From: Alicyclobacillus tolerans | GTDB lineage: Bacteria > Bacillota > Bacilli > Alicyclobacillales > Alicyclobacillaceae | DNA: 64,000 nucleotides | Direction: 5' to 3' | Assembly: GCF_001447355.1 (NCBI RefSeq) | Contig: NZ_JXBW01000001.1 | Coordinates: 186,001 to 250,000 of the forward strand | Shown here: positions 22,987 through 32,926 of the stretch, in pieces | Layout: every line of letters begins with the position of its first letter | How positions within the stretch are numbered: the first letter of the stretch is position 1 | Program-made: the position numbers and the translations under genes | Notes under the pieces: generated by a model | Seen by the model: the letters and a program-made list of their open reading frames with translations, nothing else | Told to the model about the DNA's origin: nothing | Databases searched by the model: none

Positions 22987-23408
22987 TTAAAATTTGCGAA
23001 TCGTGTATCCATCTTTGAGTAAGTACCAAAGCTGAGGGAATTCGTTGCCAAGCACCCACACAGAGACACCACGCAACTGGTATTCGTCCACCAACGCTAG
23101 CTTAATGGCGGCGCTCTGGGCGTCGTCGAACCACACGCGATGCTGCACGCCGGCAACCATGTATTCAAAATACGGCGAGGCTGATTTTACATCCCAGATG
23201 ATAGGTGCCTTCTCCGCGATAGCCAAATTCTGGGCAGTATTGTTCGACACGCCACTGGCCCGAGTACGCCCTTTCTCATACGGCAATGGCCAATCATACC
23301 CATAAAGGGACATGCCCATAAGAATCTTTCCCGGCTCGATCACGCTGGTCGCGTAGTCCAATACCGCCCTTACCTGATCGATTGGAGCGATGGCCATCGG
23401 TGGTCCGC
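22987..23408 (-). CDS. sleL: C-terminal segment of interrupted SleL/YaaH-type cortex-lytic enzyme
   Basis: This segment encodes the last third of a GH18 spore peptidoglycan N-acetylglucosaminidase: GPPMAIAPIDQVRAVLDYAT, then ILMGMSLYGYDWPLPY and the ending DEYQLRGVSVWVLGNEFPQL. It has no start of its own that makes sense as a gene. The in-frame codons upstream to 23430 come from element DNA. Its missing N-terminal two-thirds lies at 32041-32926, about 8.65 kb away on the same strand. Joining them at the shared 18-bp core gives 1,290 nt in frame. The segment would be expressed only after excision of the intervening element. Confidence 0.88.
23391..23408. repeat. Left attachment core of the intervening element
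   Basis: TGGCCATCGGTGGTCCGC matches the right copy at 32041-32058 at 17 of 18 bases (T or C at position 11). On the sleL side it sits within a 12-bp perfect palindrome, CGATGGCCATCG. The mismatch is silent: both versions encode Gly-Pro-Pro-Met-Ala. Confidence 0.8.
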
Positions 23409-23460
23409 TTGCCATCATCCAACTACACATCCTCTGATCTGTGGTATCGATGAGTCTCTG

Positions 23461-24987
23461 TTAGACTGCGGAAAACGTATAGCAAATAGAGACGGAGATG
23501 TCTGGGCGAAACGACGTCAGTCTCACCTCTTGCACCAGTGCGGCTAAAATGCGCCTCTGGACAGACGTATATTCCGATTCGTACGGTCGAACAGTCAGCC
23601 ACGACAAAATCAAGTCGCCGAGCGATGCCTCCTGCTGATGGTTGTCGCTTCCTTCTGATACAGCCTCTAATGAGGCCAACCGCTCTCGCAGGGGGCCGTT
23701 AAGATGATCAAATTGTTCGAGTGAGAGAGCGCCACTTGCATACGCAGCAAATAGCTTCTCAAATTGCGCGACAAGGCGTGATCGTTCAACCTCTGTCACC
23801 TGTCGATAAAGCGGTCTATCCGCAATCAGGCGATCCTTTAGAGGCAAATACGTCAACACATCTTCCCTGACCCGCTGGATAACGGCCTGTTCCAGATCGT
23901 CCGCGCGCACATACGGAGCATTACAGGCCGACCGCCCGTACTCCGCCTGACGGGCACAGCGATAGTAGAGCGTATGGCGCCCGTTCTCTTTTGTCACGAG
24001 CCGTCCACCGCAGACACAACGCGCCAAACCCACGAGCAGGTGCACACTGCCGACGCGCCCGCGGTGTAAACGACGCTCCTCTAAGCAATGTGCGACCGCC
24101 GCAAACGTCTCGCGATCGATAATGGCTGGATGCGCTTCGAACACGCGGACGATCTCGGCTTCATCCCGCACCCAGTCGCTTCGGCGTTCGACAACGCCAA
24201 ACTGGCCGCGTCGAAAGCGCATACGCTTCGTTCGGCGGCCATACACGATCTCGCCGCAATAAACCGGATTCTGCAAGATACGGGCAATCCGGCGTTGGCT
24301 CCATAGTTTCCCATTTGGCGTCGCGATGCCTTGCCGATTGAGTCGTTCCGCGATTGCTCGGCAGCCTACGCCAGCTCGATACATCGCGAAGATCTGACGG
24401 ATAATCGGCGCTTCTTCATCGTCGACTTCAAGCCTTTGCGTCTCGCGGTTTAGGCGATAGCCGTCAGGTGGCCGACCATTCCATCTGCCACTGCGAGCCT
24501 TTTGCATCGCGCCGAGCCGCACGCGAACGGATGTCTTTTCTGATTCTGCCTGAGCGAGAGCACTGTGAATGGTAAACACAAACTCAGCGCGATCGCGATC
24601 GCTGTCGAAGTTTTCCTCAATAGATAGAACCCGCACCCCACAGGCAATTAATAAACGCAACATGGTTAAGGCGTCCACAGTATCGCGTGCAAAGCGAGAG
24701 ATACCCTTACACAATAAGACGTCAAAGCGGCCGAGCTTGGCATCGTCCAGCAGCCGCAACACCGCTGGGCGCTTTACCATACTCAGCCCCGTAATGCCTT
24801 CGTCGACATACACAAGCTCGTCTGGGGCCAACCATATCTCGTCTGCATCACTCGCCCGTAAGCGCGCATATTCACGTGCATATGCGATCTGATGTTCGAG
24901 TGAATCGCCGTGTACCTGCGATTCGTCGGAAACGCGGGCGTAGATGGCGCAGACGCGAGTCGTACGATGGTCGGATCTCAGCGTCAT
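23461..24987 (-). CDS. Large serine recombinase (SpoIVCA-like)
   Basis: A 508-aa site-specific recombinase. The N-terminal catalytic domain has the nucleophile region VCAIYARVSDESQVHGDSLE (Ser near residue 18) and the arginine-rich ISRFARDTVDALTM helix. It is followed by a recombinase domain (GRPPDGYRLN, NRQGIATPNGKLWSQRRIAR) and a zinc ribbon (CVCGGRL to CARQAEYGRSAC, about residue 325-365). A charged helical region follows. The length matches SpoIVCA. I start it at ATG 24987, with GGGAGA 7 nt upstream; the frame stays open to 25128 after a run of seven C. It ends 53 bp from the left att core and most likely integrates and excises this element. Confidence 0.93.
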   Translation of the reverse strand: MTLRSDHRTTRVCAIYARVSDESQVHGDSLEHQIAYAREYARLRASDADEIWLAPDELVYVDEGITGLSMVKRPAVLRLLDDAKLGRFDVLLCKGISRFARDTVDALTMLRLLIACGVRVLSIEENFDSDRDRAEFVFTIHSALAQAESEKTSVRVRLGAMQKARSGRWNGRPPDGYRLNRETQRLEVDDEEAPIIRQIFAMYRAGVGCRAIAERLNRQGIATPNGKLWSQRRIARILQNPVYCGEIVYGRRTKRMRFRRGQFGVVERRSDWVRDEAEIVRVFEAHPAIIDRETFAAVAHCLEERRLHRGRVGSVHLLVGLARCVCGGRLVTKENGRHTLYYRCARQAEYGRSACNAPYVRADDLEQAVIQRVREDVLTYLPLKDRLIADRPLYRQVTEVERSRLVAQFEKLFAAYASGALSLEQFDHLNGPLRERLASLEAVSEGSDNHQQEASLGDLILSWLTVRPYESEYTSVQRRILAALVQEVRLTSFRPDISVSICYTFSAV

Positions 24988-25138
24988 GGACGGTTCTCCC
25001 TGTTCGACATCCCTGAACTTAGTACTGACCGCATCAACTCCACGAGTCGATCCGCGACCGCCGCGGGATCCACCGTGCCAAACTGGACGCTCGATATTTT
25101 GACGAGTTTTCGCTTTCGCAATCGGCATCCCCCCCGCC

Positions 25139-25180
25139 TAACCGTATGCAATAACCGCCCGTCCGTTTGCCCCATGTCAA
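25139..25180 (-). promoter_or_regulatory. Candidate promoter of the recombinase
   Basis: On the minus strand a GCATACGGTTA stretch (25139-25149) resembles mother-cell sigma-E/sigma-K -10 elements, with AC about 16 nt upstream. A TTGACA occurs at 25175-25180 without a good vegetative -10. Either reading is tentative. Confidence 0.25.
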
Positions 25181-25294
25181 CGACTATCGCAAAAAGTTTC
25201 GAAACCTGGGTGCATTTAAGTTTGTTTCAAGGATGATTGGGTAGAATGAGGAAGTGTACAAGATTATTTACGATGTGATGGGCAGGTGCGAAGG

Positions 25295-25411
25295 ATGTTC
25301 GGAACAATTGCGGCCATCGTCCTCATCACGGCCGGCATGATTACCTTCAATCGTTATGTGAAGAAACAAACCGAGCGACTGGAAGAAAAAATTCAGTCGA
25401 TGAAGGCTTGA
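25295..25411 (+). CDS. 38-aa single-pass membrane peptide
   Basis: A small gene: MFGTIAAIVLITAGMITFNR followed by a charged tail rich in Lys and Glu. One hydrophobic helix (residues 3-18) and a short amphipathic tail are visible. AGGTG lies 7 nt before the ATG at 25295, and a strong terminator follows 30 bp after the stop. It faces away from the recombinase inside the element. I recognise no family. A role as excision factor is not supported, because those are usually soluble DNA-binding proteins. Confidence 0.6.
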   Translation: MFGTIAAIVLITAGMITFNRYVKKQTERLEEKIQSMKA

Positions 25412-25440
25412 TACGGTTACTCCTCTCTCCTTCTTTGCTT

Positions 25441-25474
25441 AAAAGGCCGCAGGAGCACTTCTCCTACGGCCTTT
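25441..25474. terminator. Bidirectional terminator inside the element
   Basis: AAAGGCCGCAGGAG pairs with CTCCTACGGCCTTT around a 5-nt loop (one mismatch). It lies between the convergent small peptide gene and the permease gene and has T/A runs on both sides. Confidence 0.8.
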
Positions 25475-25498
25475 CTCGCTGTATGATGCGGCTCGCAC

Positions 25499-26986
25499 TT
25501 AGTCCAAATCGAAATCGACGTCTTGCAACGGGATGAGCTTTGTCCGTTTGATCCATTTGTAGCCGAACCACAAGGCCAAAAATAACGGAATTCCGATGTA
25601 TGTCGCGATGACCCCGGTCCAATCGACTTTGCCACCCGTAAAGGCGCTGATATCTTGCCCAACGATGACAATTGCGCACAATACGGTCGCCAGCATAGGG
25701 CCAAACGGATACCATTTCGCCCGGTACGCAAGCCTGTTTAAGTCACGTCCCTGTGCGAGATAAGCCTTGCGGAACCGGTAGTGGCTAACGGCCACCCCGA
25801 GCCAGGCAAGAAAACCAGTCAAACTGGCCGCGTTCATCATCCACGTATAAACGGCACCGTTGCCGACAAATGACGACAGAAATGCAACGAATCCAATGAC
25901 CGTGTTGACATAGAGCGCGTTCATCGGCACGCCGCGTCGGTTGACTCGCGCAAACACGCGTGGGGCTTTCCCCTCACAGGCAAGTGCCCAAAGCATGCGG
26001 CTCGACGCGTACAACGAGGAATTCCCCGCCGACAGCACGGCTGTCAAAATCACGGCATTCATGACAGCTGCTGCAAGTGCAAACCCAGCTCGCCGGAAGA
26101 CGAGTGTAAATGGACTGATCGCGACGTTGTTGACGCTTGCGTTCAACAAGTTCGGATCCGTATACGGAATAAGCATGCCAATGAGGAAGATGGCTAAGAC
26201 ATAAAACAACAAAATGCGCCAGAATACTTGACGAATGGCTCGCGGCACGGCCCGCTCCGGATGCTCGCTTTCCCCTGCCGCCAAACCAACCAATTCCGTC
26301 CCCTGAAAGGCAAATCCAGCGACCATCACGGTGCCAAGGAACCCAAGCCAACCACCGTGAAAGGGCGTCCCGCCCGTCATGAACGTGTGCCAACCAACCG
26401 GATGTCCGCCCAAGATGCCAAAAATCATAGCTAGACCAATGATAATAAAAACGATAATCGTCAAAACCTTAATTCCCGCAAACCAGTACTCGCCTTCCCC
26501 GTACCCTCGCACAGAGACGACGTTTAGCAGAAACAATACGGCGAGGAATACGGCACTCCAAACCGCGGAAGGCGTGTGCGGAAACCAATACTTCATTACG
26601 ATGGCGCCCGCCGACAACTCGGCCGGCAACGTAACGGTCCATGTATACCAATAATTCCAACCCAGTGCGAAACCAAACGCCGGATCGACAAACCGCGTAG
26701 CATACTGCTCAAACGAGCCTGCAATTGGCATGAATGTGGCCATCTCACCGAGACTGGTCATGATGAAGTAGACCATGATGCCGACAATGATATATGCCAA
26801 CAGCGCGCCGCCGGGCCCCGCCGTGGAAATGGACGATCCGCTCGCCACGAAAAGCCCTGTGCCGATAGCCCCACCCAGGGCAATCATCGATAGATGGCGG
26901 GAGCGAAGTTCACGGTGCAACCCGACCTCCGCATGTTTGCGCACAGGTTGCTCTGAAAAGGGTGTACTCGCTGGCCTCTGACTCAC
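25499..26986 (-). CDS. APC-family amino-acid permease
   Basis: A 495-aa amino acid-polyamine-organocation transporter with about 12 membrane segments. The family start is plain: LHRELRSRHLSMIALGGAIG followed by TGLFVASG in helix 1 near residue 25-50. GSFEQYATRFVDPAFGFALG and FQGTELVGLAAGESEHPERA (helix 6 region) follow. It resembles the basic or aromatic amino-acid branch (LysP/RocE-like); the substrate cannot be fixed. The GTG at 26986 has AAAGGAGC 7-8 nt upstream; a longer frame to 27034 lacks support. It is cargo of the intervening element. Confidence 0.9.
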   Translation of the reverse strand: MSQRPASTPFSEQPVRKHAEVGLHRELRSRHLSMIALGGAIGTGLFVASGSSISTAGPGGALLAYIIVGIMVYFIMTSLGEMATFMPIAGSFEQYATRFVDPAFGFALGWNYWYTWTVTLPAELSAGAIVMKYWFPHTPSAVWSAVFLAVLFLLNVVSVRGYGEGEYWFAGIKVLTIIVFIIIGLAMIFGILGGHPVGWHTFMTGGTPFHGGWLGFLGTVMVAGFAFQGTELVGLAAGESEHPERAVPRAIRQVFWRILLFYVLAIFLIGMLIPYTDPNLLNASVNNVAISPFTLVFRRAGFALAAAVMNAVILTAVLSAGNSSLYASSRMLWALACEGKAPRVFARVNRRGVPMNALYVNTVIGFVAFLSSFVGNGAVYTWMMNAASLTGFLAWLGVAVSHYRFRKAYLAQGRDLNRLAYRAKWYPFGPMLATVLCAIVIVGQDISAFTGGKVDWTGVIATYIGIPLFLALWFGYKWIKRTKLIPLQDVDFDLD

Positions 26987-27156
26987 CTTGTTAGCTCCTT
27001 TCTTGTCCCGAAAATCATCGTATAGCGTGTACATATAAATCGCAATGAGAAATGCTTTCCTTCGCTAAAGAAATAGTGAAATAAAGTGCAAAGACATAAT
27101 CAAATGCAGCTTGGAGAACCTCAAAATAAGCGATGTTTGTAAAGGAGAGGAACTCC

Positions 27157-27702
27157 ATGAAAAGGTTTGCTGCCTATCTATCGACGTCGGCCCTACTGTT
27201 TACACTGTGGGCTCCAGTCAGTGCCAACGCAGCCGTAACCGGATCAAGCCACAAAGGGGATATCGAGTTTCGCGTCGGGTCCTCCACCTCGACGGTCATT
27301 GCAGGTGCCCGCGTGATCGTCATCAACCACGACGGGAACATCGTCGCCACAGGCCTGACCAATGCCCAAGGCACGTGGGACGCGCAGGTACCCCCGTACA
27401 AGGCCAATTGGAACAAAAAGTTTGACGCCAAAGGCGTCGTCAACGCCATCGTCATTGCGGACGGTTTTAATGAACAAGCCGTGTATATCATCCCCATCAC
27501 CGAACACACAGTTCAACCCGTCATTCTGCAGCCGATACAGGCCAATCGGCGCAACGCGCCTTCGGCGTCCCTCGGCAACTTTAGTACACACGATCTGCGG
27601 CGCTACATTGACCGCTATGCGTCTGAACTGAAACTGAAGCGGCAGGCACCGATTCCTGGCGATCCGGAGTACGCGCCATGGAGTCCTCAGCAACAGCAGT
27701 AA
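27157..27702 (+). CDS. Secreted protein with carboxypeptidase-regulatory-like fold
   Basis: A 181-aa protein with a Sec signal peptide (MKRFAAYLSTSALLFTLWAP, cleavage after SANA near residue 26). A domain of about 90 residues follows that resembles carboxypeptidase regulatory-like beta-sandwiches (FRVGSSTSTVIAGARVIVIN, then ATGLTNAQGTWDAQVPPYKA). A proline- and glutamine-rich tail ends it. The ATG at 27157 has AGGAGAGG upstream. The SpoIID-domain gene starts 13 bp later, so they form an operon and probably act together at the cell envelope. Exact function is not known. Confidence 0.75.
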   Translation: MKRFAAYLSTSALLFTLWAPVSANAAVTGSSHKGDIEFRVGSSTSTVIAGARVIVINHDGNIVATGLTNAQGTWDAQVPPYKANWNKKFDAKGVVNAIVIADGFNEQAVYIIPITEHTVQPVILQPIQANRRNAPSASLGNFSTHDLRRYIDRYASELKLKRQAPIPGDPEYAPWSPQQQQ

Positions 27703-27715
27703 GGAGTGGCTGCTC

Positions 27716-28327
27716 ATGCGAACCTTTCGTTTTTTGCAACTGACACTTGCGTCGGCGGCCCTTGCGTTCGCGTTCGAGCAAGCGCCGGTGGTAAGTGCCC
27801 AGACGATTTATAACACGCCGTATCCTTCGGTCATACGGGTTGCCATCCGCGCCAATAACAACCCGACCAGCCCCATTCTGTACGTGCAGACTGTCGGCTT
27901 TGAAGAGTACTGCGAAGACGTGTTGCCAAACGAGTGGATGCCCAGTTGGAACGCCGAGGCTCTTAAGGCTGGGGCAATTGCGGTGAAGATGTTCGCATGG
28001 TACTGGACGCTCCACCCCACAACCGAAGGCGGATTTACATACGACGTGGACAACACCACAAACTTTCAGACCTTCAAATACCTAAGCGGCCAAGTCGCCA
28101 CGGATTTGGCGGTTCAAGAGACGTGGAACATGGTATTTGTGCCAAGCGACGGGTCTATTAAGCCGCTCGACTTCCGGGCTGGCACACCAGATGGCAGCAA
28201 CACGGGATACGTGGGAACCTTCATTATGTCACAATGGGGATCGCAATACTGGGCGCAAACCGCAAAGCTTCCTTTCACGACGATCCTCAGCCTCTTTTAC
28301 CCCGGGTATCAACTGCGATTTGTATAA
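27716..28327 (+). CDS. Secreted SpoIID/LytB-domain protein
   Basis: A 203-aa protein with a signal peptide (residues 1-28) and a SpoIID-type domain. The core motif, GFEEYCEDVLPNEWMPSWNA followed by EALKAGAIAVKMFAWYW, is at about residue 60-98. QWGSQYWAQ near the C-terminus is the family's closing segment. SpoIID relatives are lytic transglycosylases or peptidoglycan-remodelling proteins; the Glu in LPNE is the usual catalytic residue. It is paired with the upstream secreted protein. Its presence in an element that cuts a spore gene is suggestive, but a spore role is not shown. Confidence 0.82.
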   Translation: MRTFRFLQLTLASAALAFAFEQAPVVSAQTIYNTPYPSVIRVAIRANNNPTSPILYVQTVGFEEYCEDVLPNEWMPSWNAEALKAGAIAVKMFAWYWTLHPTTEGGFTYDVDNTTNFQTFKYLSGQVATDLAVQETWNMVFVPSDGSIKPLDFRAGTPDGSNTGYVGTFIMSQWGSQYWAQTAKLPFTTILSLFYPGYQLRFV

Positions 28328-28342
28328 CACCACTGTATCAGA

Positions 28343-28372
28343 GGGTCGAGCCCAAGTAGCTCGGCCCCTTTT
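28343..28372 (+). terminator. Terminator of the SpoIID operon
   Basis: GGGTCGAGC (28343-28351) pairs with GCTCGGCCC (28359-28367), one G-U pair, followed by TTTT. Confidence 0.75.
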
Positions 28373-28459
28373 GTGAAACATTCTCCTGCTTCCACTGCGA
28401 TCTTTCCCCCTTTGCTGCGTCTAATCAGATGTGAAGAGATTGCGAGGTGCCATGGTCTC

Positions 28460-28978
28460 ATGGAACGTTACCGATCGTCTGTCCGCGAAGAAGTCTCGAG
28501 ATTATACGAGCGCTATGCGGACGATGTCTATCGCTATGCGAGATTGACTCTGGGCACCGAAGACGATGCTTACGACGTGGTGCAGGAGACTTTTTTACGG
28601 GCTATTCGCGGTTGGCCAAGATTTCGCAGGGAAGCAAGTGAGCGTACATGGCTGCTACAAATCGCGCGCAATGTCATGTATGACAAGTTTCGTAGACGTC
28701 GCTCCGAACAAAGGGTGAAGCAGTTTGCACAAATCCATCAAACCCAGTGGCAAGATGCCATCGATCACTCCCTTGTGATCGAAAGCGCCATCGGGAAGCT
28801 GCGCGAATCTTACCGCCAAGTCGTCATTCTACGTCATGTTGAAGGCCTTAATGTAGAAGAAACCGCACAAGTACTGGGGTGGAGCGAGAACAAGGTGCGT
28901 TCGACTACGCATCGTGCACTTGCCAAACTGCGAGACCTGCTCACTGATGATGAGGAAACGGGGGTTTGGGACAGATGA
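28460..28978 (+). CDS. ECF-type RNA polymerase sigma factor
   Basis: A 172-aa sigma-70 family member with region 2 (LYERYADDVYRYARLTLGTE, then DVVQETFLRAIRGW, about residues 15-60) and region 4 (VEGLNVEETAQVLGWSENKV, about residues 130-160). There are no regions 1 or 3, as in extracytoplasmic-function sigma factors. The start is ATG 28460 (AGGTG upstream), though the frame opens earlier at 28373. Its stop overlaps the next start as ATGA, the usual coupling to an anti-sigma factor. Target promoters are unknown; no convincing autoregulated ECF promoter was found. Confidence 0.88.
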   Translation: MERYRSSVREEVSRLYERYADDVYRYARLTLGTEDDAYDVVQETFLRAIRGWPRFRREASERTWLLQIARNVMYDKFRRRRSEQRVKQFAQIHQTQWQDAIDHSLVIESAIGKLRESYRQVVILRHVEGLNVEETAQVLGWSENKVRSTTHRALAKLRDLLTDDEETGVWDR

Positions 28979-30084
28979 GCCATTGGCACAGCATCGAGAA
29001 GGAGCTCGAAAAAATGAAATCGGTTCGCATGTCAAAAGAACAGCGGGATGGCATCTGGCAGAATATCGTGGCCAATTTGGACAGCGTGCCAAAGCGCAAC
29101 ACGGTAAGCGCCCGCAGTGTATGGGCATCAGTGGGGGGGGTTACCGCTGCAATCGCGCTCGTCGTAGGTGGCTATGCTTCCGTGCACAAAGGATCACCCG
29201 GCCCACGTACGGCGGTTGAGGCGCCAGTCCAAGCCGGCTCGGCGAATGGTTCGCCCGCCATTCTGTATCAATTACACAACTATACAGCACAAGCCAATCG
29301 AGCGACAGTTCCCTTTTACGAAGACGGTCACATTGTCCAGGAACGAATGCCGATACAGAAAAGTTTGGCAATCGCCAAGGAACATAGTCCATGGCGAACC
29401 GATCCGGTCCTGTCTGCCCAAGCGTATACAGCCAATCTCTTACCTGCAGGTTTTGCTCATGCAGCTTGGAGCACCACGAACCATCACACGTTGACCACGA
29501 CCAAAAACGGCGTCATCGCGACATACCAATTGTTAAGTAGGAACGATGCTGGCTCTCCGCCAACAGCGAACGTGCAACTTTCCATCACAGGTGAAGGACA
29601 TGCATTGTACTATCAAATTCATCTTTTTGAATTACAACATAGGTACGTATGGGATATCGCGCAAATTGTCCGTACGCCGGCCCCACCGCTTCCGCTACCC
29701 GCAGGCATCAAATCGCTGTCAGTGACCACAGGCCTAGCGGGAATCGGGTACGTACCGAACCAGTTCGACAAAGTTGCACATCAGATAACAGCGTGGCTAG
29801 AGACGGCGACACGCACGTCGTATCAGCTACCGCCCGCGCCCGCTAACCTGATCTTCAACGTGAATGTCGCACCGGATACCCTGTATCTAACCGCATCCGA
29901 CGGCACACAGATTTCTATCACACCAGCCTATACGATCGTAAGACGAGACGAAAAGTATGAAGTGCTGACACAGCCCGACACCCTCGAATACAAGACGCCG
30001 ACAGAAGTGGCGTATCTACATTGTCCAGCTTTATACAAGTGGCTTGACGATCACGCCTGGAAAGCATCGTTTCACCTGTCGTGA
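28975..30084 (+). CDS. Putative membrane anti-sigma factor
   Basis: A 369-aa protein with a 45-residue cytoplasmic N-terminus, one membrane segment (VWASVGGVTAAIALVVGGYA, about residue 44-63) and a large extracellular domain of about 300 residues. Translational coupling (ATGA) to the sigma gene and the topology point to a regulator that sequesters that sigma factor. It lacks the HxxxCxxC zinc motif of ZAS-type anti-sigma factors. A run of eight G at 29133-29140 lies in the codons of the membrane segment, so replication slippage would truncate the protein before its outer domain. The sensed signal is unknown. Confidence 0.72.
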   Translation: MSHWHSIEKELEKMKSVRMSKEQRDGIWQNIVANLDSVPKRNTVSARSVWASVGGVTAAIALVVGGYASVHKGSPGPRTAVEAPVQAGSANGSPAILYQLHNYTAQANRATVPFYEDGHIVQERMPIQKSLAIAKEHSPWRTDPVLSAQAYTANLLPAGFAHAAWSTTNHHTLTTTKNGVIATYQLLSRNDAGSPPTANVQLSITGEGHALYYQIHLFELQHRYVWDIAQIVRTPAPPLPLPAGIKSLSVTTGLAGIGYVPNQFDKVAHQITAWLETATRTSYQLPPAPANLIFNVNVAPDTLYLTASDGTQISITPAYTIVRRDEKYEVLTQPDTLEYKTPTEVAYLHCPALYKWLDDHAWKASFHLS

Positions 30085-30234
30085 AACCCTGTTTGTGCGC
30101 CAGTGTTTATCTTCATTTCCTCCACATGGTTTCCGTGTTGCTTGCGCCATGTTGTCACATCAGCCAAGCAACACGAGCCTTGCGGGTTCCATCCTTCTGG
30201 CTTCTGTGCATGTTGAACAATATGCATCGATGAG

Positions 30235-30256
30235 TACAACCTTCACTACGGTTGTA
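30235..30256. terminator. Hairpin between the anti-sigma and arsB genes
   Basis: TACAACC (30235-30241) pairs with GGTTGTA (30250-30256) between convergent genes. There is no clear T-run. The rest of 30085-30286 shows nothing else I can support. Confidence 0.45.
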
Positions 30257-30286
30257 ATCAGTACACTGTGACAAGGTCCCCAAACT

Positions 30287-31591
30287 TTAATGCACGGCTA
30301 GCAGCCAAACATACAAACCAGAGAGTGTGATAAACAGTGTTGGAAGCGTGAGCACAATACCTGTTTTGAAGTATTGACCCCAACCGATGCGCACCCCTTT
30401 TTGCGCCAAGACGTGTAACCAAAGTAATGTGGCAAGTGAGCCAATGGGTGTGATTTTGGGTCCTAAATCACACCCAATAACATTGGCGTAGACCATCGCT
30501 TCACGCATAAGACCCGTTGCGGCGGCGGAGTGAATCGCAAGTGCACCCACCATCACGGTCGGTAAATTGTTCATAATGCTCGACAGGATGGCTGCAACAA
30601 AACCTGTGAACAGCGTCCCGGCGTAAAGCCCACCGTGCATCGACCACTGCATGAGACTGCCGAGCAATGTGGTCAGTCCCGCGTTGCGAAGTCCGTATAC
30701 GACGACATACATACCTATCGAAAACACAACGATGGACCAAGGTGCACTGCGAATCGTCGACCACGGTGCGACGGTCTTGGTTCTCGCTCCGGCGATGAGA
30801 AACACCAGCGCAACCGCCAAGGTAACGAAGCTGACAGGGATATGAAACAACTCAGTCAGAACGTAACCGACAAGCAAGACAGCGAGGATGATCCAGGAAG
30901 CCAAAAACATACCTTTGTGTCGAATGGCACTTGCCGCCTCTGGCAAATCACTTGGGCGATAGGCATTGGGAATGTCCTTACGAAAGAAGAGATATAACAT
31001 CAAGAAGCTGGCGACAAACGCAAACAAGTCAGGGACAATCATGTGTAAGGCATAGCTGATAAAACCGACGCCAAAGTAATCGGCGGACACGATGTTGACA
31101 AGGTTACTCACGATGAACGGCAGTGACGTGGTATCGGCAATAAATCCACTTGCCAGTACAAACGGTAGCATCTTCCTCACGTCAAATTTCAACAGCTTCA
31201 CTTTTTCTAGTACGATGGGTGTCAAAATGAGCGCAGCTCCATCATTGGCGAAGAAGGCTGAGACGATGGCCCCGAGTGTAATGACATACAAAAAAACTTT
31301 TCTCCCGTCCCCTTTGGCGACATGTGCCATTTTGAGCGCGGCCCACTCGAAAAAACCGATTTTGTCTAAGATTATCGAGTTCATGATGATGCCTACGAAT
31401 GCCAAGGTCGCATCCCAAACAATTTTCGTCACCGACCATACATCTGCGACATGCACAACATGAAGCAGCAGTGCGAGCACCGCACCGCCTATGGCGCTCC
31501 ATCCGATGGACAACCCCTTGGGTTGCCATATGACAAACACCAACGTCAAAACAAACACCGCCAGTGCGAACCATGCCGCAGGCGCTATCAT
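30287..31591 (-). CDS. arsB: ArsB-type arsenite efflux pump
   Basis: A 434-aa, roughly 12-helix transporter of the ArsB/NhaD ion-transporter superfamily that expels arsenite or antimonite. Family segments: GIIMNSIILDKIGFFEWAAL (about residue 67-86), SAFFANDGAALILTPIVLEK, SLPFIVSNLVNIVSADYFGV and CDLGPKITPIGSLATLLWLH near residue 380-400. The ATG overlaps the last codon of a broken arsR as ATGA. arsC is not present next to it. It is cargo of the intervening element, as ars genes are in the B. subtilis skin element. Confidence 0.93.
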   Translation of the reverse strand: MIAPAAWFALAVFVLTLVFVIWQPKGLSIGWSAIGGAVLALLLHVVHVADVWSVTKIVWDATLAFVGIIMNSIILDKIGFFEWAALKMAHVAKGDGRKVFLYVITLGAIVSAFFANDGAALILTPIVLEKVKLLKFDVRKMLPFVLASGFIADTTSLPFIVSNLVNIVSADYFGVGFISYALHMIVPDLFAFVASFLMLYLFFRKDIPNAYRPSDLPEAASAIRHKGMFLASWIILAVLLVGYVLTELFHIPVSFVTLAVALVFLIAGARTKTVAPWSTIRSAPWSIVVFSIGMYVVVYGLRNAGLTTLLGSLMQWSMHGGLYAGTLFTGFVAAILSSIMNNLPTVMVGALAIHSAAATGLMREAMVYANVIGCDLGPKITPIGSLATLLWLHVLAQKGVRIGWGQYFKTGIVLTLPTLFITLSGLYVWLLAVH

Positions 31592-31923
31592 GTGGCCACA
31601 CCCTCACACTCGATTTGCAAATCTTCTCTATGTACCAATTTGTTCTCGTCCCTCAGATTCATCAACTCGTTCAGTGATATACCCACTTCCTGAAGGCGAA
31701 TCGTGTTTCATGCATAGAAAACCCACATACCTTTTCGAGTTTCCTTCACCAGCCCCACGGCCTTCAGTCGGCTCATATGTTTTGACACAGCCGGCTGCTA
31801 GATGCCAAACAGTGGAACCAATTCACATACACACCAGTCGCGGATGTTTAACAGGGCAATAATTCGAAGACGCGTGGGATCCGCCAAGGCCTTCAACGTG
31901 CTCGCGAGTTTTTCCAAATCCAA
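31588..31923 (-). pseudogene. arsR: arsR pseudogene with two in-frame stops
   Basis: Read straight through, this frame of about 111 residues is a complete ArsR repressor. It runs from a TTG at 31923 with GAGGTG 7 nt upstream to a TGA that overlaps arsB. The sequence LKALADPTRLRIIALL and the metal-site motif WCVCEL are intact. Two stops break it: TAG (31798-31800) within the recognition-helix region, FGI then QPAVSKHMSRLK, and TGA (31708-31710) after GMWVFYA. No base is gained or lost. Point mutation of sense codons is the likeliest cause, leaving arsB without its own repressor. Confidence 0.85.
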
Positions 31924-31944
31924 TTCCGATCACCTCAACACATC

Positions 31945-31960
31945 ATAACCACATCGTTAT
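31945..31960 (-). promoter_or_regulatory. arsRB promoter and ArsR-type operator
   Basis: ATAAC (31945-31949) and GTTAT (31956-31960) form an inverted repeat with a 6-nt spacer, a typical ArsR operator layout. It overlaps a minus-strand promoter, TTGATC, 18 nt, TATGAT, upstream of the broken arsR. Confidence 0.5.
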
Positions 31961-32020
31961 CAATCGATCAAACGACGCACGTCCGTTACCCCTTCGGTCA
32001 GTACCGTACACGCATGCAGT

Positions 32021-32926
32021 CTAAACATGTAGCATCTTGTTGGCCATCGGCGGTCCGCCGACCCATCCCCACTCATACGTCATCAGCATGACAAAGTCGA
32101 CTTCCTGCCCCAACGTCCGATAATCGAACGCACCCATCCAAGGCTGATTCGGGTTGTCGGCCGTCTTTGGTCCCATCGCAATGGATATGCTTAGGTTCCG
32201 ACTGCGCAAAGATTTGCCCAACTCGCGAATAAACTCATTGTACAGTGGCCGGTCCGATGGACCCATATGTTCGAAGTCGACGTTCACACCCGCATATCCT
32301 TTGCTTGTGCAGATCGATAAAGCTTGGTCGATCACGGTCTGACGTAAGGAGCGGTTGGCCAGGATGGAATGTGCTAGTTGCGTGTTGAAGTTGTTGCCAT
32401 CGAAGTTCGTGATCGTGACAAGTGGGCGAATGTTGTATCGTTTTGCCGAGGCGAGCACGATGTCGTCCTTTGGAGCTTCAAAATGGCCATCAGCGCGAAC
32501 CTGATAAGAGAATGTACAAACATAGGTCAGGTCTGAGACATCGCCTAAGATTTCCTCGTCGCTCTGCTCGCCAGTCGGCACGATGTACCCGTTTACTCCA
32601 ATCGTTTTTCGCGTCGTGCGCCGCACAGGCAGATATATTTGCGACCCTACCGAAAGTGCGGACCCACTCACATAGCCGGTCCAACTCGCGAAGACCGCAG
32701 GCGAAATACCGAAACGCTGCGCAATAGATTCCGGTGTATCACCTGATTGAATGGTGTAAGCTTGAACAGCAAGCGGATCTCCCTTCGGAATCAACAGAGC
32801 TAGACCCGGTACGATTTCGGTGCGCGAAGGCAGTTCGTTGTAACGCAAGATGTCGCGCACCGATACACCATAGGTGGCGGCAATCTGCCTGAGCGTCTCT
32901 CCAGAACGGACGCGATGAATTCGCAT
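32021..32926 (-). CDS. sleL: N-terminal segment of interrupted SleL/YaaH-type cortex-lytic enzyme
   Basis: Two LysM peptidoglycan-binding domains (residues 2-47, HRVRSGETLRQIAATYGVSV; and 52-99, YTIQSGDTPESIAQRFGISP) precede a GH18 barrel (from about 108). The catalytic acid is in GVNVDFEHMGPSDRPLYNEF (about residue 227-246). The barrel stops abruptly after MTYEWGWVGGPPMA, where five foreign codons and a stop follow. The remaining barrel is encoded at 22987-23390. The ATG at 32926 follows GGGAGG by 7 nt. SleL enzymes cut cortex fragments during germination and are made in the mother cell. The split form should be inactive. Confidence 0.9.
   Translation of the reverse strand: MRIHRVRSGETLRQIAATYGVSVRDILRYNELPSRTEIVPGLALLIPKGDPLAVQAYTIQSGDTPESIAQRFGISPAVFASWTGYVSGSALSVGSQIYLPVRRTTRKTIGVNGYIVPTGEQSDEEILGDVSDLTYVCTFSYQVRADGHFEAPKDDIVLASAKRYNIRPLVTITNFDGNNFNTQLAHSILANRSLRQTVIDQALSICTSKGYAGVNVDFEHMGPSDRPLYNEFIRELGKSLRSRNLSISIAMGPKTADNPNQPWMGAFDYRTLGQEVDFVMLMTYEWGWVGGPPMANKMLHV
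32041..32058. repeat. Right attachment core of the intervening element
   Basis: TGGCCATCGGCGGTCCGC, the partner of 23391-23408. On the gene side CGGCGG-A-CCGCCG forms a perfect dyad. Crossover anywhere in the core restores the sleL frame. Confidence 0.8.

Follow-up and report, generated by a model that had tools for sequence, protein, structure and literature searches.

The locus examined here raises the question of why a gene for a spore cortex-lytic enzyme should lie in two separated parts, and whether these parts can be brought together again. It is found in a stretch of 64,000 nucleotides from Alicyclobacillus tolerans (contig NZ_JXBW01000001.1, positions 186,001 to 250,000), which we call the window. 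There, sleL/yaaH is interrupted in frame by an 8,650-bp element that carries a gene for a large serine recombinase (LSR) (Table 1). Based on our comparisons, we consider it likely that this is a site-specific element excised by its own LSR, which would rejoin sleL in the mother cell in the manner of the skin element. The comparison of sequences strongly supports excisability; we infer that excision occurs, that it is timed to sporulation and that only the mother cell carries it out.

The first-pass annotation of this DNA had proposed an in-frame split of sleL with a core sequence common to both junctions and an LSR just inside one edge, as SpoIVCA lies in skin, and all three proposals were confirmed. 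The N-half (886 nt, 32041-32926, minus strand) and the C-half (404 nt, 22987-23390, minus strand) join into 1,290 nt with a single open frame of 429 aa, and residues 2-428 of the joined product align with the solved SleL/YaaH proteins 4s3k and 4s3j (E about 1e-80). Searched singly, each half falls below the NCBIfam cut-off. The junctions share the 18-mer GCGGACC[G/A]CCGATGGCCA, and the LSR gene ends 54 bp inside the C-side core. The longest open reading frame (ORF) of the LSR begins at 25128 (555 aa); the likely start is the one given in Table 1, which overlaps a small upstream ORF.

Table 1. Features of the split sleL gene and of the intervening element (coordinates within the window)
Feature	Coordinates	Strand	Remarks
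Intervening element, 8,650 bp between inferred crossover points	23404..32053		Placed from the attP dyad centre
sleL N-half	32041..32926	-	Two LysM domains and catalytic part of GH18 domain; Pfam LysM, Glyco_hydro_18 positions 71-182
sleL C-half with its own core copy	22987..23408	-	Glyco_hydro_18 positions 209-316; dN/dS 0.03 versus G003 and G011
attL core GCGGACCGCCGATGGCCA	32041..32058	-	Inferred crossover CC at 32053-32052
attR core GCGGACCACCGATGGCCA	23391..23408	-	Inferred crossover CC at 23403-23402
Large serine recombinase, likely start 24987 (508 aa)	23461..24987	-	Pfam Resolvase, Recombinase, Zn_ribbon_recom
Small ORF, about 45 aa, start uncertain (longest form 24984-25175)	24984..25121	-	ATGA overlap with recombinase start
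Conserved leader GGCAAACGGACGGGCGGTTATTGCATACGG, promoter-like	25142..25171	-	General form GCAAGTGGACAA-N10-CATA
Amino acid permease (cargo)	25499..27034	-	Pfam AA_permease 5.7e-147
189-aa protein, signal-like N-terminus by eye (cargo)	27133..27702	+	Weak CarboxypepD_reg match, below cut-off
SpoIID/LytB-domain protein (cargo)	27716..28327	+	Pfam SpoIID 5.6e-11; NCBIfam SpoIID_LytB below cut-off
ECF-type sigma factor (cargo)	28373..28978	+	Sigma70_r2, Sigma70_r4_2
372-aa protein overlapping the sigma gene (cargo)	28966..30084	+	No Pfam match; anti-sigma role guessed from position alone
Arsenite efflux pump ArsB (cargo)	30287..31591	-	NCBIfam PRK15445 4.4e-196

In a pattern search, the core occurs exactly twice in the 2.81-Mb window assembly, as attL and attR. 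Because the attP site rebuilt by joining the element ends has its dyad symmetry centred on the CC of GGACC (the fraction of matching positions is 0.57 for the core centre versus 0.17-0.37 for the other centres tried), the crossover most likely takes place at this CC, which sets the length of the element. The consensus attP arms read TGTAGT on the left and roughly ACTACA on the right. All N-halves and C-halves of the 16 split genomes that were fully analysed meet at GG[A/T]CC. Their core glycine codon is GGA in 16/16 N-halves and 15/16 C-halves versus 5/21 intact genes, among which is an additional sleL copy that G001 carries beside its split one (Fisher p = 1.6e-6 for N-halves and 3.1e-5 for C-halves, the genomes being non-independent through shared ancestry). 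Inner att-like sites directly 3' of extra LSR copies, with scores of 36.2 and 22.9 in G001 and 39.1 in G007, indicate tandem integration; the corresponding site of G005 (17.7) is within the noise, as the best random scores were 19.8 for left arms and 17.1 for right arms.

A search with the joined protein covered 61 genomes, namely that of the window and 60 relatives. Among the matches listed, at least 16 genomes, the window's included, have N- and C-parts meeting at one point. In all 16 fully analysed split genomes, joining the halves at the core gives one open frame, of 426-445 aa except in G018, where a longer N-part gives 495 aa. Chance is excluded as a source of the split, because in-frame halves at one split point recur in every one of them. 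A scan of 41 family genomes with a C-half profile added a 17th split genome, G061, with matching junctions, so that reading at base level has shown the identical split, at the same Gly-Pro codons and core, in 17 genomes belonging to the window's family and a sister family (G041 comes from a different family within that taxonomic order). The halves are about 3.7 to 41 kb apart where they share a contig, and lie on separate contigs in G031 and G021; among the matches listed, G003 is closest to the window genome at the sleL locus. In a phylum-wide scan of 199 evenly drawn genomes, 21 had a match at E <= 1e-36, and a short frame was seen only in the window genome. Since the recombinase tree agrees with the sleL tree only in part, and the latter has split genes mixed among intact ones, several independent insertions appear more likely than one.

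Substitution patterns argue that both halves are under purifying selection and that the C-half is not relaxed relative to intact homologues. In four close split pairs (G000/G003, G006/G012, G004/G007 and G003/G011, where G000 is the window genome) the ratio of nonsynonymous to synonymous substitution rates (dN/dS) was 0.045-0.089 for the N-half and 0.032-0.073 for the C-half; the pair G000/G011 gave 0.038 and 0.031, respectively, and more distant pairs gave values up to 0.38 with large or saturated dS. The C-half/N-half dN ratio had a median of 0.81 in 120 pairs from 16 split genomes versus 0.80 in 105 pairs from 15 intact ones (p = 0.87, the pairs not being independent). Moreover, G003 and G011 have all six cargo genes of the window genome in the corresponding interval. 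The three genomes carry the same element and cargo, and therefore the interruption predates their divergence. The sleL dS of G011 versus the other two is about 1.0-1.2, and across this span the gene has thus stayed split and under selection.

These data bear on one alternative, in which an ordinary mobile island disrupted a dispensable gene, so that sleL is dead and paralogues do its work. Selection this strong on both halves up to a dS of 1.2, with no relaxation versus intact genes, is not what a dead gene would leave, nor would it retain the wobble base of the att core or keep 16/16 joined ORFs free of stops and frameshifts, the altered far C-terminus of G016 aside. On the other hand, a dead gene would agree with the presence of other GH18 genes in the genome, with the occurrence of elements in tandem and with the case of G014, where the only sleL match among those listed is a 39%-identical paralogue and which indicates that sleL can be lost. 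On balance we find it quite improbable that sleL is dead.

Conservation of the C-half is also expected if each half is made as a polypeptide of its own and the two combine into an active enzyme with no DNA rearrangement, and several genomes have an in-frame ATG a few codons 5' of the core, that of the window scoring 5/6 for Shine-Dalgarno. By the same crude score, however, 29/34 C-half start candidates reach only 1-3 of 6 versus 3-5 for N-half starts, and the C-half candidates stay at or below 3/6 in 13/16 genomes, two of which have no candidate. In G041 and G025 an in-frame stop lies 0 and 2 codons 5' of the core, respectively, with no start codon between, which leaves only a post-core methionine. 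The first-pass annotation named as refuting evidence that relatives show the halves as separate conserved genes, which is not what was found: conserved they are, but in every case as in-frame parts that meet at the att core, and 2/16 C-halves have no start codon in the open frame upstream of it. Separate translation would also leave the near-fixed GGA codon, the symmetry of attP and the association with the LSR unexplained, and we regard it as very improbable.

Rejoining by recombination is in keeping with the distribution of the LSR. At E <= 1e-100 its profile matches 17/41 family genomes, which comprise 16/17 of the split genomes versus 1/24 of the others (Fisher 2.7e-9, the genomes not being independent). 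The sleL state was taken from the C-half profile scan of the same 41 genomes, and the 24 others include G009 (split at another site), G008 (contig ending inside the gene), G014 (paralogue only) and G064 (no match, 72% complete). The LSR gene ends within 60 nt of the C-side core, or overlaps it, in 13/17 base-level cases (the 16 and G061); in G041 it is inverted and lies at the N-side core, and in G025 and G021 it lies 6.4 kb and about 25 kb inside the element, respectively. Its dN/dS was 0.09-0.13 in five pairs.

Several observations weigh against excision by this recombinase as the explanation. The split genome G019 has no LSR of this family, and G022 carries one (G022:C219:18834-20390) yet has an intact sleL, being the only such genome of the family. 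The LSR copies of G005 are short (428 and 407 aa, at 4.7 and 3.3 kb from the core), yet both of its sleL halves are intact. The C-half of G016 has an altered C-terminal end, the C-half core wobble base differs in G021 (GGT) and G019 (GGC), and the arm-to-arm covariation of attP within genomes is not beyond chance (permutation p = 0.11). As for the window genome, its assembly shows the element solely as integrated (attL and attR), the well-scoring ATG of the C-half has been mentioned above, and there are three further GH18 genes, so that the SleL function may be backed up. The skin-like architecture proposed in the first-pass annotation is confirmed, and agrees with the recurrence at one codon, the selection on both halves, the LSR association, the symmetric attP and the core wobble base that is near-fixed in split genes but not in intact ones.

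A possible control region precedes the recombinase gene. An ORF of 41-85 aa lies just 5' of 17/18 LSR copies (it is missing at G005b, the G025 version is divergent, and the motif was chosen by eye); it overlaps the LSR start by ATGA in 8/17 cases and has no NCBIfam or PHROG match. We propose it as a candidate recombination directionality factor. The leader in front of it, in its general form GCAAGTGGACAA-N10-CATA and at the exact spacing, matches in at least 8/12 letters in 16/17 copies (6/12 in G018), compared with 5/1,489 random CATA sites, a consensus derived from the very copies on which it was scored. The CATA has the form of a sigma E/K -10 box, and we propose that the leader may be a promoter of the mother-cell type. 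A reading of the leader as a SpoIIID site is not claimed here, as no paper giving that consensus was found. In several genomes (L049 of G031, L054 of G041, L044 of G007b) an inverted repeat, e.g. CATATCCAT...ATGGATATG, extends across the ribosome site in front of the small ORF; judged by eye, it seems to change on both sides, and it could serve as an operator or fold into an RNA hairpin. The sleL N-half of the window has a CATAGG box and a Shine-Dalgarno sequence upstream, and such a box about 40 nt 5' of the sleL start is found in 9/16 split genes and 3/6 of the intact genes shown.

In the mechanism that we envisage, the LSR would recombine the two GGACC-centred att sites, so that the element leaves as a circle and sleL is rejoined in frame. 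The germ line, i.e. vegetative cells and the forespore, would retain the element and the mother cell would excise it, as with skin in sigK. The mother cell would supply the spore with SleL/YaaH, the cortex-lytic enzyme, and then be discarded; yaaH of Bacillus subtilis is expressed in the mother cell and belongs to a spore-specific gene family. Excision would be switched on in sporulation by mother-cell control of the sigma E/K type, with the small ORF setting the direction of recombination. The element could be kept because the germ line keeps it while the discarded mother cell excises it.

The metagenome-assembled genome (MAG) G019 holds both forms of sleL. Of its contigs C101 and C324 (L155 and L156), C101 has the rejoined junction and C324 a split C-half; the two are identical over 120 nt from the CC of the core to where C101 stops, and diverge from the base before this CC. 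A mixed population, arising by excision or from two strains, would give such contigs. ORFs resembling a repressor and ImmA, named by eye, lie near the split C-half on C324. Sporadic excision or a mixture of strains would produce both forms just as well, and thus so would a cycle outside sporulation, sporadic or triggered by stress and similar to active lysogeny, in which rejoined cells would be a minority. Such a cycle would suit the window element, in which, among the proteins scanned, only the LSR and the sigma factor are of phage type. It fits less well with the spore specificity of the gene family, mentioned above for B. subtilis yaaH, and with the leader of the LSR operon, whose spacing is invariant and which ends in what may be a -10 box of the sigma E/K type; nor would one obviously expect it to leave selection comparable in strength to that on intact genes. 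We therefore consider a cycle outside sporulation unlikely, and favour excision in the mother cell.

Two further, distantly related LSR lineages also interrupt sleL. In the Aneurinibacillus family, sleL of G106, G146, G156 and G166 (L149, L150, L151 and L152/L153) is split at the same Gly-Gly-Pro codons; across the 20 codons that were read to either side of the junctions, the two parts are in frame when joined. The LSR of this family adjoins the C-half, is 26-28% identical to that of the window and has its attP dyad centre 3 bp away (0.67). By search only, G199 and G200 resemble these splits; 6/11 genomes of the family appear split and 3/11 have no match at the threshold. A CarD-like gene lies beside the recombinase in G106. 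In G009 (L055, L063), sleL is split by about 118 kb at LYG^YDW (residue about 326), joining its flanks gives SLYG^YDW in frame, and an LSR 25% identical to that of the window lies by the N edge; this interruption is a second, independent one.

Other candidates were set aside. The short frame of G139 is probably a frameshift, as its N- and C-parts are adjacent with GGPP contiguous, and G017:C2 is a truncated extra copy. The Clostridia/Oscillospiraceae MAG loci L083 and L087 were not counted, no N-half having been found in their genomes; in both, sleL seems cut near EWG with a similar GTGTGCTA-CAA sequence upstream, and L083 has a recombinase. At L078 (G026) a serine recombinase (28% identity) lies on the other strand right after a shortened sleL C-terminus, past residue about 411, which is perhaps another insertion point.

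With regard to a phage origin, no phage structural or replication genes were found among the eight larger element proteins of the window, where PHROGs matched only the LSR (as integrase) and the sigma factor. Pfam agrees for seven of the eight, and the scan covered ORFs from about 190 aa upwards together with the small ORF. The element of G029 has a phage-type regulator, unlike that of the window. Among ten proteins taken from six other elements are a heavy-metal P-type ATPase, a Na/H exchanger, Mqo and a glyoxalase. The matches to the LSR obtained when looking for a free phage relative (five IMG/VR loci at 23-31% identity and 707 phage records, all below 60%) are uninformative on origin. In G002 and G013, whose sleL is intact, the permease, SpoIID-like and 189-aa genes lie beside sleL and not within it, and in G010, likewise with an intact sleL, the permease does; the three loci (L056, L057 and L058 for G002, G010 and G013) suggest a possible cure by replacement or rearrangement.

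Intervening elements are known from several other sporulation genes. The skin element in sigK of B. subtilis and Clostridioides difficile (PMC13141910, PMC10747680) resembles the window element in its LSR near one edge, short core and in-frame rejoining of a mother-cell gene. Its target is a sigma factor, whereas here an 8.65-kb element of predicted excisability, without recognised phage structural genes, interrupts a cortex-lytic enzyme at the same site in many species. The gin element in gerE of B. cereus ATCC 10987 is likewise a non-phage element with a site-specific recombinase in a sporulation gene (PMC5595907), but it has three recombinase genes and another target, in contrast to the single LSR and small overlapping ORF described here. 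SPbeta in spsM, vfbin in spoVFB and vrin in spoVR (PMC4191935), as well as yin in yabG (PMC10747680), are also intervening elements in sporulation genes, though in other genes and prophage-like. Within the same genus, the 105-kb prophage MMB025 interrupts another sporulation gene, sigK of A. acidoterrestris, with a recombinase gene beside the site (PMC13141910); its integrase is 27% identical to the LSR of the window.

A term search inside PMC4191935 and PMC10747680 found no mention of sleL/yaaH. The statement of the first-pass annotation that no such case is known for a cortex-lytic enzyme holds within the open-licence PMC literature, where we found no report of an interrupted sleL/yaaH and matches combining sleL and recombinase were unrelated by title; subscription papers and preprints lay outside this scope. 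The kind of system is thus known, the target gene is new and the recurrence unusual.

A broader proposal, whose chances we judge to be about even, is that sleL is a recurrent and stable site of programmed excision. At least three distantly related LSR lineages would independently have made a cortex hydrolase depend on rejoining in the mother cell, and the hosts would carry exchangeable stress-resistance cargo that is lost only by the doomed cell. The att sites, the recombinase and the small ORF are compact enough for direct testing in E. coli. If the reading is true, a germination enzyme of the cortex-lytic kind would join the short list of genes rebuilt by excision, in acid-loving spore formers. 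The 17 genomes cut at one codon, together with distant recombinases converging on the same codons, would constitute a natural replicate set, which bears on why such elements persist in sporulation genes.

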